A DNA stretch of 49,453 nucleotides from positions 1 through 49,453 of the forward strand of contig NZ_FUXG01000023.1 of NCBI RefSeq assembly GCF_900167095.1, written 5' to 3'. Source of the DNA: Oceanospirillum multiglobuliferum. Its GTDB lineage: Bacteria; Pseudomonadota; Gammaproteobacteria; Pseudomonadales; Halomonadaceae. This document shows positions 4,926-9,525 of the stretch, one piece after another (the stretch's first letter is position 1; the number at the start of each line of letters is the position of its first letter). A program made the translations under genes and the position numbers. The notes under the pieces are model-generated. The model was not told where the DNA came from. It was given only the letters and a program-made list of their open reading frames with translations, and made no database searches.

Positions 4926-5582
4926 ATGCAGAATAAAAAAGTTGCCGTTGTATTATCTGGTTGTGGCGTTTTTGATGGTACAGAGATTTTCGAAGCCACA
5001 CTTACACTACTAAGACTCGATCAACTTAATTGTAATGTGCAATGTTTTGCACCTGACATAATGCAGCACCATGTTTTAGATCATCGTACGGGTGACTTAA
5101 TGCCAGAGCAGCGTAATGTGCTTACTGAAGCTGCACGTATCAATCGCGGAAATGTTCATGCACTAGCCGAGGCTAACGCAAATGATTTCGACGCACTGAT
5201 TATTCCCGGTGGGTTTGGTGTGGCAAAAAACCTTTCAACCTTTGCCTTCTCCGGCACAGATTGCGAGGTTAACGCTGAATTTAGCCGCCTAGTACAACAG
5301 TTTCATCAGCAGAAAAAACCTATTGGTATGATCTGCATTGCACCGACTTTACTGCCTAAGATATTAGGTCCTGGGGTTAGTTGTACTATTGGTCATGATG
5401 CCGCAACAGCAGGGAAAATTGATGAAATGGGTGGTCTCCATATCGGTTGTGATGTCGATAATATCGTTATCGACTACGAGCACAAAGTCATCACTACACC
5501 AGCTTATATGGAAGCAACAAGAATATCAGAAGCGGCTGTAGGCATATCCAAGCTTGTGGATAAGGTCATTGATCTGAGTTGA
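4926..5582 (+). CDS. elbB: Isoprenoid biosynthesis glyoxalase ElbB (ES1/DJ-1 superfamily)
   Basis: ElbB belongs to the DJ-1/PfpI class I amidotransferase-like fold. E. coli ElbB has weak glyoxalase activity and is linked genetically to isoprenoid output, but its physiological role is unsettled. The start is the ATG at 4926, preceded by TTGGAGA. An upstream in-frame TTG at 4899 has no such signal. The resulting 218 residues match the ~217-residue family length. Recognisable motifs are SGCGVFDGTE at the N-terminus, IIPGGFG in the middle and the nucleophile-elbow ICIAPTLLPK with its cysteine. Pairing with the membrane di-iron protein upstream may be an operon, but no functional link is established. 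Confidence 0.92.
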   Translation: MQNKKVAVVLSGCGVFDGTEIFEATLTLLRLDQLNCNVQCFAPDIMQHHVLDHRTGDLMPEQRNVLTEAARINRGNVHALAEANANDFDALIIPGGFGVAKNLSTFAFSGTDCEVNAEFSRLVQQFHQQKKPIGMICIAPTLLPKILGPGVSCTIGHDAATAGKIDEMGGLHIGCDVDNIVIDYEHKVITTPAYMEATRISEAAVGISKLVDKVIDLS

Positions 5583-5636
5583 GTGTAACAGCACAGAAGG
5601 ATTATAAGGCAAGTGGATTAAGCCACTCTAAGTTGC

Positions 5637-5667
5637 ACCACCATCCTTTCAGCAAAAGGATGGTGGT
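5637..5667. terminator. Perfect 13-bp hairpin between convergent genes
   Basis: ACCACCATCCTTT (5637-5649) pairs perfectly with 5655-5667 across a 5-nt loop. It lies between the end of elbB (+) and the end of the HD-GYP gene (-), where a bidirectional terminator is expected. Neither side has a clear T-run, so termination efficiency is uncertain. Confidence 0.55.
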
Positions 5668-5678
5668 ATGTCATGTTG

Positions 5679-6869
5679 CTAAATTCTGTTCTTTTTACCC
5701 ATTTGCAATGCATTAATTCCCCACAATATTGCGGGGTTCACAGCGACTTTATCCTTTTCAGAGCAGGTGGCTCGAATCGAAAATTCTTCAGACTCTGTAT
5801 TACGCCTACGCGGACTTAAAAACACATTACCATCTGGCTTACGCACACTGGCAACCAATGGCTGTTTTGGACTTTCTGTGCGACCTACCACTACGGCTAA
5901 TTCACCATTCTGTAGCTTGACGTAAACACCTGGTGGATAGAGGCCAAGTTCATGTACAAAAACTGTCGTTAAGCGTTCATCTACAGTACGTCCACGCTGA
6001 ACAAAAAGTTCTCTTAGCGTTTCTTTATATGAAACTGGCTGCCGATAAGGGCGAGGCGTCACCATCGCACAGTAAACATCTGCCAATGCAATAATTTTAG
6101 CCTCTATAGGTAACGCTTCTGCTTTTAAACGCTTAGGATAACCACTACCGTCTGGGCGCTCATGGTGCTTACGCACAAGCATTAACCACAATTCATCAAC
6201 CACACCTGCTGCTTGCAATATAGCCGCACTGATATCGGGGTGTTTTTCGATTACACCTCTTTGCTGATCGTTTAGAGGCTGCCTTTGCTGGTGTAGCTTC
6301 ACCTGATAGGAGTTCATCGCAATATTGCAAGTTAACGCTGCAGCTAACATCGACAAGCGTTGCTCTTGCTCTAGGCCTAGCCGATTGGCAATAATTTCAC
6401 ATAGCACAGCAGACTGTACTGGGTGTAATACATGATAAGGGAAGTTATCTTGAAGATGCACCGCCCCTATCATCGCATCTGCATCATGCGCTACTAAACC
6501 TTGCAGGTAGACCACTATATCCATAATCCGCTTATGAATAAGATCTTGTTGCAGGTCTTTCTTTTTTTCTAAAAGCTGAAAGAGTTCCGACAAACGTAGG
6601 CAAATATCATCAAACTCAGCAAAAGGGTTCACTGGCCGATTAAATATAATCGGCTTAAGTTTGCCCTCTTTTTCAGACTCATCATCCACTGTTTCTTGGG
6701 CGTACAAGCCCACACGAATCAGAATATCGCGCTGACGTTCGGTACGAATAATCGAACCCTTAGCCATTAGCAGTTTGCCAAACTCATCATAAACAGGCCA
6801 AGGTACTGGCTCATTAATTTTTAAGTCGACAGGAGCAATTGAGCTAAGCTCAAAATCTTTCATGATCAT
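5679..6869 (-). CDS. HD-GYP-family protein with degenerate HD motif
   Basis: HD-GYP domains are metal-dependent phosphodiesterases that hydrolyse cyclic di-GMP. This 396-residue protein has an N-terminal segment (about residues 15-60, WPVYDEFGKLLMAKG) seen in other HD-GYP proteins, a linker, and an HD-GYP-like domain at roughly 140-310. The GYP half is intact: H235-H236-E237, then D240 and G243-Y244-P245. The signature HD pair, expected after the helix ending AAALT, is replaced by T180-C181 in TCNIAMN. The metal centre therefore lacks normal ligands and the protein may be inactive or only bind a partner. A conserved-looking C-terminal segment (VKLQNGELAVVVGR) follows. It is the last gene of a unit with two diiron-type MBL proteins, 30 nt upstream. 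ATG codons at 6869 and 6863 are both possible starts. Confidence 0.8.
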   Translation of the reverse strand: MIMKDFELSSIAPVDLKINEPVPWPVYDEFGKLLMAKGSIIRTERQRDILIRVGLYAQETVDDESEKEGKLKPIIFNRPVNPFAEFDDICLRLSELFQLLEKKKDLQQDLIHKRIMDIVVYLQGLVAHDADAMIGAVHLQDNFPYHVLHPVQSAVLCEIIANRLGLEQEQRLSMLAAALTCNIAMNSYQVKLHQQRQPLNDQQRGVIEKHPDISAAILQAAGVVDELWLMLVRKHHERPDGSGYPKRLKAEALPIEAKIIALADVYCAMVTPRPYRQPVSYKETLRELFVQRGRTVDERLTTVFVHELGLYPPGVYVKLQNGELAVVVGRTESPKQPLVASVRKPDGNVFLSPRRRNTESEEFSIRATCSEKDKVAVNPAILWGINALQMGKKNRI

Positions 6870-6899
6870 CGGGTGTTACCTTAAAGCACATTCCTGCAC

Positions 6900-7694
6900 T
6901 CAAAACCGCTCATTGCGATAGATCTGATCGATATAATCGCCGCCACAACGCAGTTCACTGAACCAACCTAAAAAACGCTCAACTTGATCCTCAGGGAAAA
7001 TAGCACCATGCTGCGGCACAATCATTTTCACCTTGAGCTTACGAATCAGGTTGACCCACTTGGCACAAACTTGATTGCTATGCATGTAGCGCTTATGAAA
7101 GCCTTCCATGTACTGCAGATGCTCATCAAAATCATCCACAAACATATAACGCTTATTGGGAGGAAAAATCGCCGCACCAATATCACCTGAGAACAAAATA
7201 CCAGAGCGACTATCATACAAACTGAAGTTGCCTTCACTGTGTAGAAAATGCGCCGGAATCAAAGCGATATAGTCACCGCTATCCAAAGTGATTCGGCCAC
7301 CGTTATCTGGTACAGCCATCACTCGGTCGATATCCTCCATACCGAAGTGAGAGACAAAATGTAGCCACAATCTAGATATTAGAAGATCCGCGTCTGTTGT
7401 TTTCATCCAATATGGAATTGAAGAGCACACATCAGGATCCTGATGGGTGGCAAACAGATAACGAATCTGCCTTGGATTGATGACGCGCATAATGTTTTCT
7501 AATACATGGTGGAAAACATAAGTACCGCCCGGATCAAAAAAATACCCTTTGTCTTGATTCACAACTAAGCATTGATTAGTTTGCACAAAGGCGTCTGAAC
7601 CTTCCTGTTCTTCCCAGCCAAACCAAACCACCTGATGCTCGTCATCCTCATAGAGAATTTTGCTCTCATCAACTCGTGTAATTTTCTGATCCAT
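6900..7694 (-). CDS. Flavodiiron-like metallo-beta-lactamase-fold protein (ODP-type), second copy
   Basis: The 264-residue product is a stand-alone metallo-beta-lactamase fold with the metal-ligand pattern of flavodiiron proteins rather than hydrolases: H84-x-D86-x-D88 (motif THQDPDV), H152 (FLHSEGNF), D171 (SGDIGA) and H229 (PQHG). Spacings match flavodiiron NO/O2 reductases almost exactly, but there is no flavodoxin domain. This resembles the oxygen-binding diiron proteins (ODP) described from Treponema. The usual HxExDH is HxDxDV, so one carboxylate is Asp and the following His is absent. It is preceded by GAGGTGGG and lies 26 nt downstream of a close paralogue (7721-8494) and 30 nt upstream of the degenerate HD-GYP gene. 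O2/NO sensing or reduction is inference. Confidence 0.8.
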   Translation of the reverse strand: MDQKITRVDESKILYEDDEHQVVWFGWEEQEGSDAFVQTNQCLVVNQDKGYFFDPGGTYVFHHVLENIMRVINPRQIRYLFATHQDPDVCSSIPYWMKTTDADLLISRLWLHFVSHFGMEDIDRVMAVPDNGGRITLDSGDYIALIPAHFLHSEGNFSLYDSRSGILFSGDIGAAIFPPNKRYMFVDDFDEHLQYMEGFHKRYMHSNQVCAKWVNLIRKLKVKMIVPQHGAIFPEDQVERFLGWFSELRCGGDYIDQIYRNERF

Positions 7695-7720
7695 TGCCCA
7701 CCTCTTCTTATTGTGATGTC

Positions 7721-8494
7721 TTAGGCAAGTGCGTTGTCATAGATCTGGTCCAGCAGATCCGTCCCACACTCCAGCTGTTCTAACCATGCAAAAAACTGTG
7801 GCACCATCTCTTTCGGAATAATGGCACCGTGCTGCGGCACTATGCTGCTGATCTCTAAATGGCGCACACTTTGAATCCAGCGCCGAAGGGCCAAGTTATT
7901 ACCCATGTAACGTTTATGAAAGCCTTCCATGTAGGAGACATGAGTTTCCCAATCAGAAACCTCTAAATAACGTTCGCCCTTTGGAAATACGGCCGCCCCA
8001 ATATCACCTGTGAAAAGAATTTTTGAGCGGGTGTCATAAAAACAAAAATTACCCTCACTGTGTAAAAAGTGTGCAGGTAGTAGCTTGATATACTCGTTAC
8101 CATCAAGACGAATCTGTTTTCCATGATCTTCGATTGAGACTAACCGGCTGTTATCGCTAAAACCAAAGTGCGATACAAAACGAATCCATAGACGTGAAAC
8201 TAGTAAACGAGCATTTGTGGACTTCAGCCACAGAGTAATAGACGACAAAACGTCAGGGTCTTGGTGAGTGGCTAAAATATAGCGAATCTGGCTCAGAGGA
8301 ATATATTTGGCAACTTCTGAGGCAACTTCTGAAAAGATGTACGCTCCACCTGGATCAAATAGGTAAGCGTTATCTGCATTGATAACCAATAGTTGATTTG
8401 ATTGTACCAAGGACTCGTGCTCGTGATCCTCCCAGCCAAACCAAATAACTTGGTGCTCATCGTCCTCGTAGAGAATTTTACTTTGATCAACCAT
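7721..8494 (-). CDS. Flavodiiron-like metallo-beta-lactamase-fold protein (ODP-type), first copy
   Basis: This paralogue of the adjacent protein shares SKILYEDDEHQV at the N-terminus, THQDPDV, HFLHSEGNF, GDIGAA, GFHKRYM and VPQHGAI, so the pair is an old tandem duplication. Numbered from the ATG at 8494 the ligands are H77, D79, D81, H145, D164 and H222. A TTG six bases upstream (8500) is better spaced from AAGGA and could be the real start. The start codon lies inside a perfect inverted repeat (8482-8501). No flavodoxin or rubredoxin domain is attached, so if it reduces O2 or NO it needs a separate electron donor; otherwise it would be a sensor. It is first in the three-gene unit ending in the HD-GYP protein. 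Confidence 0.8.
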   Translation of the reverse strand: MVDQSKILYEDDEHQVIWFGWEDHEHESLVQSNQLLVINADNAYLFDPGGAYIFSEVASEVAKYIPLSQIRYILATHQDPDVLSSITLWLKSTNARLLVSRLWIRFVSHFGFSDNSRLVSIEDHGKQIRLDGNEYIKLLPAHFLHSEGNFCFYDTRSKILFTGDIGAAVFPKGERYLEVSDWETHVSYMEGFHKRYMGNNLALRRWIQSVRHLEISSIVPQHGAIIPKEMVPQFFAWLEQLECGTDLLDQIYDNALA

Positions 8495-8501
8495 GATCAA
8501 A
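8482..8501 (-). promoter_or_regulatory. Perfect 8-bp inverted repeat over the start codon of the first ODP-type gene
   Basis: TTTGATCA (8482-8489), a 4-nt spacer and TGATCAAA (8494-8501) form a perfect inverted repeat. In the mRNA it would fold into a stem with the AUG at the stem-loop junction. As DNA it could be an operator: the half-site contains TTGAT, but the gap between TTGAT and ATCAA is 8 rather than the 4 of an FNR box. Confidence 0.5.
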
Positions 8502-8651
8502 AATATCCTTATATCCAGTCAAAATAAATATCCTTCACTAAAATCAAGCAATAGCTAAATTGCCATGCCTGAAAAACAGCTGGATTATTAAAGACTAGAT
8601 ATTGAGAGAATAATTTGATCTAAAACAAAAAGAGGTGTGGTATAGCAGATC
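8495..8651 (-). promoter_or_regulatory. Upstream region of the ODP/HD-GYP unit
   Basis: This A/T-rich region must hold the promoter of the three-gene unit. AAATATCCTT occurs twice (8501-8510 and 8526-8535, 25 bp apart) with a further ATATCC between at 8511. The copy nearest the gene supplies its ribosome binding site (AAGGA on the minus strand). No confident -35/-10 pair could be chosen. Confidence 0.35.
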
Positions 8652-8717
8652 TCTTACATCTTCTTTGTAAGAAGCTGTAACAAAGTTAAGTTAGAGCCTG
8701 CATAAACCCTAACTTAA
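8652..8717 (-). terminator. Two tandem hairpins after tatC
   Basis: A 9-bp perfect stem (8686-8694 with 8709-8717, 14-nt loop) lies just after the tatC stop, and a second 7-bp stem (8652-8658 with 8666-8672) follows. They separate the tat operon from the ODP/HD-GYP unit on the same strand. Neither has a long T-run, so they may terminate weakly or only protect the mRNA end. Confidence 0.4.
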
Positions 8718-8727
8718 TCTATAAAAC

Positions 8728-9525
8728 TTATTCGTTAGGGCTTTGCTCTGCGTCACGAGAATCGGGCGAACCTTTTTTTACAAATCGCCCCATGATAATA
8801 CCCAGCTCATATAGTAGCCACATAGGTAGCGCTAATAAGGTCTGTGAAATCACATCAGGAGGCGTCAGTAACATGCCAATGACAAAACAGAATATCACCA
8901 CATAGGGGCGCTTCTCTGACAGAGACTCGACCGATGCAATACCTGTCCAAATCAAAATAAAAGTTGCAACCGGAATTTCAAAAGCGACGCCAAAAGCAAA
9001 GAAAAGCTTCAAAACGAAATTAAGGTAGGAGTTAATATCCGTCATGATGGCCACATCAATGGGGCCTGCCGAAGTAAAGAACGCGAAGATAATTGGAAAC
9101 ACTACATAGTAGGCAAAAACTGCTCCTGCATAAAACAACACCACACTAGAAGCCAGCAGTGGTAACGCGATTTTTTTCTCATTTTGATATAAGCCTGGTG
9201 CGATAAAGCTCCAGACTTGATACAGCAGATAAGGCACCGCCGCAAAAATAGAGACCACCAACGTCAGCTTAAAGGGTGCTAAAAACGGAGAGGCAACTTC
9301 TGTTGCAATCATCTGCGTACCTTCTGGTAATAAGGTACGTAGTGGCTCAGAAACGATCATATAAAGATCATTCGAGAAATAGTACAAACCCAGAAAGATG
9401 GCTAAGATTACTAGCACTGAGCGCAGTAAGCGCGTGCGTAGCTCTATCAGGTGCTCAATTAGGGGCGCGTGCTTACCTTCCTCTAACTCTGGAGGCGGTA
9501 ACTGAGGTTGTTCAGTTTGGCTCAT
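8728..9525 (-). CDS. tatC: Sec-independent protein translocase TatC
   Basis: TatC is the six-span inner-membrane receptor that, with TatB, recognises twin-arginine signal peptides on folded proteins. The 265 residues include the cytoplasmic N-terminal motif E24-H25-L-I-E28-L-R30, which contributes to signal-peptide binding, and the first-loop motif FIAPGLYQNE with the conserved glutamate E116. Six hydrophobic segments are visible. The N-terminal 20 residues are Pro/Glu-rich and the C-terminal tail is short and charged. It is the last gene of hisE-tatA-tatB-tatC and starts only 2 nt after the tatB stop, so it is probably translationally coupled. Confidence 0.96.
   Translation of the reverse strand: MSQTEQPQLPPPELEEGKHAPLIEHLIELRTRLLRSVLVILAIFLGLYYFSNDLYMIVSEPLRTLLPEGTQMIATEVASPFLAPFKLTLVVSIFAAVPYLLYQVWSFIAPGLYQNEKKIALPLLASSVVLFYAGAVFAYYVVFPIIFAFFTSAGPIDVAIMTDINSYLNFVLKLFFAFGVAFEIPVATFILIWTGIASVESLSEKRPYVVIFCFVIGMLLTPPDVISQTLLALPMWLLYELGIIMGRFVKKGSPDSRDAEQSPNE

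Follow-up and report, generated by a model that had tools for sequence, protein, structure and literature searches.

A putative FNR-controlled operon joining two proteins of the oxygen-binding di-iron family to an HD-GYP protein without the HD dyad in Oceanospirillum multiglobuliferum

Introduction

Proteins of the oxygen-binding di-iron protein (ODP) family include an oxygen sensor that works with a partner receptor (PMC7666581), and ODP genes occur in operons with chemotaxis, chemoreceptor and other signal-transduction genes as well as in fusions to such domains (PMC7319448). Among HD-GYP proteins, DvhD of Desulfovibrio vulgaris (structure 9rbz) has lost the HD dyad and binds cyclic di-GMP (c-di-GMP) without cleaving it (PMC13090378), and degenerate members of the family regulate other c-di-GMP enzymes (PMC12570481). 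Here we describe a three-gene unit, M2-M1-H, in a stretch of 49,453 nucleotides from Oceanospirillum multiglobuliferum (assembly GCF_900167095.1, contig NZ_FUXG01000023.1, positions 1 to 49,453; hereafter the window). Two ODP genes are followed in this unit by a gene for an HD-GYP protein that lacks the HD dyad. We favour, with moderate confidence and from sequence comparison, the reading that the operon encodes a pair of ODPs, induced by FNR and responsive to O2/Fe(II), which would act through a non-catalytic HD-GYP protein. The genes of the unit are as follows.

7721-8494, minus strand: M2, first gene; a stand-alone protein of the ODP family with the metallo-beta-lactamase (MBL) fold, 257 aa from the ATG at 8494
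6900-7694, minus strand: M1, second gene; an ODP-family protein of 264 aa
5679-6869, minus strand: H, third gene; a protein of 396 aa that has the HD-GYP fold and lacks the HD dyad, and in which HHE, GYP and RPYR are present

Start codons were assigned mechanically, and for M2 the open reading frame lister placed the start at a TTG at 8500 (259 aa) rather than at the ATG. The gaps calculated from the coordinates are 26 nt between M2 and M1 and 30 nt between M1 and H. A first-pass annotation of this DNA had described three genes with this spacing, and its coordinates and its description of the motifs hold.

Results

M1 and M2 are ODP-family proteins

The ODP profile of Pfam (PF19583) matches M1 with an E value of 2.5e-77 (259.6 bits) and M2 with an E value of 1.4e-73 (247.4 bits), against a curated cut-off of 27.2 bits. 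The sole other Pfam match of either protein is to Lactamase_B, and the Pfam search found no flavodoxin or rubredoxin domain in either, so the earlier description of M1 and M2 as stand-alone di-iron proteins is upheld. Within the PDB, M1 is matched best by solved oxygen-binding di-iron proteins (6qrq, E 3e-85; 6qnm, E 4e-81), with full flavodiiron proteins trailing at E 3e-9 to 9e-9. Seven residues of the ligand region (H84, D86, D88, H149, H152, D171 and H229 in M1 numbering) are invariant in the alignment in 14/14 M1 and 15/15 M2 proteins, all of which have the H-x-D-x-D, H, D, H di-iron ligand set, and the same seven are invariant in 82/82 other ODPs (5/5 third ODPs, 12/12 further ODPs of the order and 65/65 distant ones). 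The ligand set that the first-pass annotation had called flavodiiron-like is indeed present, but M1 and M2 are members of a known sensor family and not merely flavodiiron-like. Two other identities were considered and set aside. An ordinary zinc hydrolase would carry the usual HxHxDH motif, whose second His is an Asp in 111/111 aligned ODPs; a classical flavodiiron enzyme has a C-terminal flavodoxin domain that binds flavin mononucleotide, and this was lacking in the Pfam search.

The main rival to a sensory role is O2/NO detoxification, in which M1 and M2 would be FNR-induced scavenging reductases that have a flavoprotein or rubredoxin as their separate electron donor, and H would be a separate regulator that happens to share their operon. 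Such a role would be consistent with the likeness of the ligand set to that of flavodiiron proteins and with the weak hits on a flavorubredoxin model and on flavodiiron structures, and FNR-type control suits detoxification genes as much as it does sensors. We nevertheless judge it unlikely: the flavodoxin domain is missing and none of the three genes encodes an electron donor, the nearest solved relatives are named for oxygen binding, two non-identical scavengers would be redundant, and H is present with the ODPs in all 15 loci described below.

M1 and M2 are about 56% identical to each other. In a tree of 75 of the 111 aligned rows (29 of the 65 distant ODPs among them), made from the last 265 residues only and midpoint-rooted for drawing, the M1 proteins form one group (100/98), the M2 proteins another (100/99), and the two groups join (99/94). 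Because these are supported sister groups and the ligands are invariant in both, the pair looks like the product of an old local duplication that left both copies intact. Next to the joint M1 and M2 group (95/88) stand ODPs from Calescibacterium and from two bacterial genomes similar to it, and in 3/3 of those loci a soluble chemoreceptor gene lies directly 3' of the ODP gene (checked with Pfam in one). The first-pass annotation had proposed that M1 and M2 could form a heterodimer. This is possible but would not be required, since Terasakiispira keeps a two-gene form, M2-H, from which M1 is absent; the presence there of the M2-type copy alone, with H beside it, suggests that M2 and H are able to work without M1.

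The source genome has a third ODP (G000:C31:34062-34769), which we rejected as a member of the system: it belongs to another clade and has as its neighbour a short gene resembling those for methyl-accepting chemotaxis proteins (MCPs). In that locus (L004 8042-9438) the MCP-like gene, of 205 aa, precedes the ODP gene, and GGDEF-EAL and MCP genes flank the two. No FNR-type box was found before the third ODP in the four Oceanospirillum loci scanned.

H is an HD-GYP protein that has lost the HD dyad

The Pfam matches of H are HD_5 and HD, and both fold and profile place it among the HD-GYP proteins. The HD dyad is found in none of the 15 H orthologues: it reads C-N in H itself, with Asn at the Asp position in 15/15, and it is missing in 42 of the 43 subfamily rows that are readable there. 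HHE and GYP are both retained in 15/15. The first-pass view of H as a degenerate HD-GYP protein is supported. Since the catalytic dyad is lost in every orthologue, normal c-di-GMP phosphodiesterase activity is unlikely for H. Eight residues of DvhD make its canonical c-di-GMP contacts; six of them are identical in H (Y145, L199, Y244, M269, R273 and Y275) and a seventh, K582, is conservatively changed to R204. All eight positions are invariant in 15/15 H orthologues, and some of them are common to HD-GYP domains generally. The N-terminal 70 residues of H have no Pfam match, and the confidence of their predicted structure (pLDDT) is mostly 37-52.

H could also be an enzyme still, an HD-GYP variant that would use H149, H210, HHE and D264 as candidate ligands and hydrolyse a cyclic dinucleotide under the control of the ODPs. 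In keeping with this, H149, H210, H235, H236, E237 and D264 are invariant in 15/15, the fold is intact and most of the DvhD contacts are retained, while the non-cleaving DvhD has lost the double His as well (PMC13090378). The absence of the dyad from all orthologues and nearly all readable subfamily rows, the fixation of Asn in place of Asp and the replacement by Met of the Lys of HDxGK in H nevertheless make an active enzyme quite unlikely in our estimation.

The three genes are inherited as a unit

The M2-M1-H order is found in 14 loci, the window counted, in three genera. The 13 further loci comprise five from Oceanospirillum, six from Marinospirillum (one an uncultured metagenome-assembled genome, MAG), one from Allopseudospirillum and one from a MAG that is labelled Pseudomonadaceae and groups with Marinospirillum; among the matches listed, the nearest named loci are those of O. 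sanctuarii and O. beijerinckii, both at 88% for M1. Since the same order recurs in these 13 loci, the arrangement is not a matter of chance. With the two-gene form of Terasakiispira included, H accompanies the ODPs in 15/15 loci.

Any ODP at all (E 1e-3 or better) is carried by 25 of 117 close relatives, and in 13 of these 25, the source genome included, it is of the M1 or M2 type. Evenly drawn samples of 390 order-level and 369 class-level genomes yielded no protein of this type at E 1e-75 or better beyond the window's own; apart from the source genome, they appear to contain no cassette-bearing genus. Exact peptide patterns led to 245 confirmed relatives, of which the best 80 were used; the distant ODP contexts are a sample, and loci and relatives are not independent of one another. 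The first-pass annotation had taken conservation of the gene order beyond close relatives as a test of its proposal, and the outcome is divided: the order is kept in three genera, but beyond them only as the two-gene form of Terasakiispira.

Conservation in Oceanospirillum, Marinospirillum and Terasakiispira extends to the flanking genes (tat genes, elbB, hemB and ppk), which makes synteny alone a weak argument for joint function and lends some credit to the alternative that the three genes are held together simply by the local synteny from tat to hemB. We drew 30 tatC loci from the TatC matches in 58 genomes to weigh it. Seven have an adjoining ODP gene; of the remaining 23, elbB or hemB adjoins tatC in 19 and ppk in one, and in three none of these does. 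The flanks are thus kept without the cassette in 19/23 tatC loci, and the cassette is found without the flanks in Allopseudospirillum, where it lies away from tatC on another contig, just downstream of two tRNA-Lys genes (L010 4563-4724). Genes for tRNAs are frequent integration spots. We rejected pure synteny on these grounds, and ordinary co-localisation without joint function is very improbable. The cassette genes come, go and move jointly, with the exception of M1 in Terasakiispira; their presence and absence together across relatives bears out the original claim of a single gene unit.

An FNR-type box precedes M2

The region between tatC and M2 contains the following elements.

8615-8628, minus strand: FNR-type box TTGTTTTAGATCAA, upstream of M2, with one mismatch to TTGATNNNNATCAA, which we take to be the FNR consensus
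8584-8592, minus strand: A/T-rich -10-like element (TTTAAT at 8592-8587, AATAAT at 8589-8584), 22-25 nt past the box
8686-8717, minus strand: terminator-like hairpin between tatC and M2, which fits a separate transcription unit

A box within one mismatch lies before M2 in 14/15 loci, representing all three genera that have the full cassette and including the differently flanked Allopseudospirillum. A mononucleotide shuffle predicts 0.285 sites over all 15 M2 upstream regions. As a control, we scanned 72 intergenic regions of 14 relative loci; 13 had a site, made up of 12/13 M2 regions and 1/59 others (L013 fell outside this control through its 80-nt filter and is within the 14/15 count). The spacing of 22-25 nt is near that of class II FNR promoters. 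A -10-like hexamer with at least 4/6 matches occurs 24-25 nt past the box in 7/14 box-bearing loci and in none of the other seven, and a promoter scan of the region gave three sites where shuffles gave 7.0. The evidence for the terminator-like hairpin is weak, since the consensus scan placed five such sites in 5500-8900 where shuffled sequence gives 2.9 (sd 1.7). A second apparent box in Marinospirillum, TTGATATATATTAA, overlaps a -10-like TATATT and is probably no FNR site. The source genome encodes an FNR-type regulator (L200) with the cysteine cluster CVTCSLSSLC and an ETVSR helix, both of which we read as FNR-like. The box and this regulator gene support anaerobic induction of the operon.

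Two FNR-type boxes also precede the gene that follows the cassette in Allopseudospirillum (L010 8270-9895).

Paralogues of H lie beside cytochrome c' genes

In 13/13 cassette-bearing genomes a cytochrome c' gene (PF01322) lies directly 3' of a paralogue of H on the same strand, as the coordinates show, with Pfam applied to four of these neighbours; nine further cytochrome c' matches lie elsewhere. The cytochrome-linked paralogue lacks HD in the 12 genomes that are readable there, and in the source genome it is a fragment at a contig start beside the cytochrome gene. The four cytochromes that we read have starts like signal peptides and a CxxCH motif. Four of these loci are:

L144 2801-4487: H paralogue and cytochrome c'
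L145 2890-4631: H paralogue and cytochrome c'
L147 3517-5268: H paralogue and cytochrome c'
L167 322-1348: H paralogue and cytochrome c' in the source genome

Because two unrelated gas-reactive metalloproteins adjoin two HD-less paralogues, this is the strongest hint that the HD-less subfamily may serve gas or redox signalling. We propose, tentatively and as a possibility that we rate below even, that an HD-less GYP family in Oceanospirillaceae is dedicated to gas or redox state. Its paralogues would be plugged into unrelated metalloprotein sensors, a cytosolic ODP pair and an exported cytochrome c', and each would read c-di-GMP or control a c-di-GMP enzyme non-catalytically. In this view the ODP operon would couple an ODP system to a c-di-GMP receptor; FNR would govern how much of it is made and O2 how active it is. 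We found no publication on a link between an H paralogue and cytochrome c' in the open-access literature.

In one Marinospirillum genome a CheV-type gene, with CheW and receiver domains, comes after a close HD-less paralogue that is about 50% identical to H (L143 3649-5907).

Other ODP genes and their neighbours

Of 82 other ODP loci, 33 have a signalling gene on the same strand at a distance of no more than 200 nt, and 49 are without the types looked for. The 33 comprise 12 with a Roadblock-type protein, 11 with a short MCP-like protein, six with GGDEF-EAL, three with a soluble MCP and one with an MCP. The label of short MCP-like protein is a weak one: L155 scored 20.9 bits versus 34.6, and L004 and L168 gave no match. 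The overall count agrees with the published account of ODPs in signalling operons (PMC7319448).

Several of these arrangements recur. The ODP gene is followed directly by a same-strand GGDEF-EAL gene in L026, L028, L029, L030, L066 and L080 (Tepidiphilus, Hydrogenophilus and one betaproteobacterium), which constitutes a link from ODP to c-di-GMP outside the family that carries M2-M1-H. The pair of short MCP-like protein and ODP recurs in 11/82 loci. Roadblock-type genes stand before the ODP gene in 12 loci (L024, L034, L035, L039-L042, L048, L050, L053, L056 and L061), the protein of L024 having a weak receiver match, and the ODPs so linked possibly form a separate system. An ODP gene is divergent from a CLC chloride-channel gene, at 200 nt or less, in 15 loci, mostly from Azoarcus-like bacteria (L043, L044, L045, L049, L052, L055, L057, L063, L064, L067, L070, L072, L073, L075 and L078).

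Discussion

Our preferred reading implies the following sequence of events. At low oxygen an FNR-type regulator would turn the operon on, as the conserved box and the FNR-type gene suggest. M2 and M1 would then load iron and, if they behave as other members of the ODP family do, hold O2 as a stable di-iron adduct without turnover, having the full ligand set and no flavodoxin electron donor. The operon structure and the co-inheritance of the genes point to a contact with H that may differ between the oxygenated and deoxygenated forms. By analogy with DvhD and NosR, and given the nucleotide contacts that it has kept, H would bind c-di-GMP without cleavage or act on another c-di-GMP enzyme, and may in this way relay the oxygen state to motility or attachment. 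The first-pass annotation had proposed that the pair senses or consumes O2 or NO and passes a signal to the HD-GYP protein; of this, an O2-related signalling role is made plausible by the conserved FNR-type box and by the unit-like presence and absence of the genes.

Several observations weigh against this reading. The cassette has been seen in one family only, so its conservation spans a limited evolutionary time. Among the 82 other ODP loci there is no same-strand HD-GYP gene adjoining an ODP gene, and the sole HD-GYP gene near one (L046) is convergent. In H, the eighth DvhD contact, E668, is replaced by R292, and E668 aids nucleotide specificity in DvhD (PMC13090378). The FNR-type box is absent in Terasakiispira. 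Across the window the variant motif occurs at chance frequency (six seen against 6.3 expected, with at most one mismatch), so the case for the box rests on its conservation, and the consensus motif is slightly above chance (six against 2.5). The box is typical of the M2-M1-H operon and not wholly private to it, since it also stands in 2/23 regions ahead of H paralogues (0.6 expected) and in 2/11 ahead of third-type ODP operons (0.2 expected), among the latter a perfect example in L160, upstream of 6601-7200. An FNR box is, moreover, a sign of regulation by oxygen and not of oxygen sensing. As for a gas or redox role of the subfamily, the cytochrome is exported and H has no sign of export, and the genes next to other HD-less homologues (L148 to L151) are unrelated.

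If the preferred reading is true, O2/Fe(II) sensors of a class that is known, if little studied, would signal through a non-catalytic HD-GYP protein. Oxygen would then be an input that needs neither a kinase nor a fused domain, and the fixed loss of the HD dyad would gain a function. The operon would offer a compact module, probably controlled by FNR, for the study of signal transfer by a free-standing di-iron sensor, and the cytochrome c'-linked paralogue makes testable the question of whether HD-less GYP proteins are general relays of gas state.

The M2-M1-H composition was not found in the open-access literature that we searched, which limits the claim of novelty to that literature. Among the closest described counterparts is the ODP of Treponema denticola (TDE2498) with its cytoplasmic receptor TDE2496, a stand-alone di-iron oxygen sensor for chemotaxis that is coupled genetically to a signalling partner (PMC7666581), as M1 and M2 are to H. 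The partner there is a chemoreceptor and the ODP is single, whereas here the partner is an HD-less HD-GYP protein and the ODPs are two old paralogues; FNR-type control is not mentioned in the available part of that account (PMC7666581). ODPs in other signal-transduction operons have likewise been recruited to varied signalling systems, but the available part of that description names neither HD-GYP partners nor tandem ODPs (PMC7319448), both of which are found in M2-M1-H. Because ODPs with signalling genes have been described already (PMC7319448), the novelty that the first-pass annotation saw in this exact composition appears to be confined to the combination of partners. The combination of an ODP pair with an HD-less HD-GYP protein appears to be new, and the sensor type is known.

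On the side of H, HnoD of Shewanella is reportedly an HD-GYP protein of degenerate type that takes part in sensing a gas, NO. NosR of Burkholderia pseudomallei is likewise a degenerate HD-GYP protein in an NO-sensing pathway, which resembles the gas link that we propose for H; it is a kinase-driven response regulator with a receiver (REC) domain, whereas H has no REC match and there is no kinase gene in the unit (PMC12570481). DvhD is a membrane receptor with PAS and HD-GYP domains that has lost the double His, and H keeps it (PMC13090378). Bhr-HD-GYP (PMC8846402) and a globin-coupled HD-GYP sensor (PMC10882959) also tie a metal-based O2 or redox sensor to an HD-GYP domain. In those two cases the sensor is a hemerythrin or a globin fused to it in a single chain, whereas M1 and M2 are separate ODP proteins encoded beside their putative HD-GYP partner (PMC8846402, PMC10882959).

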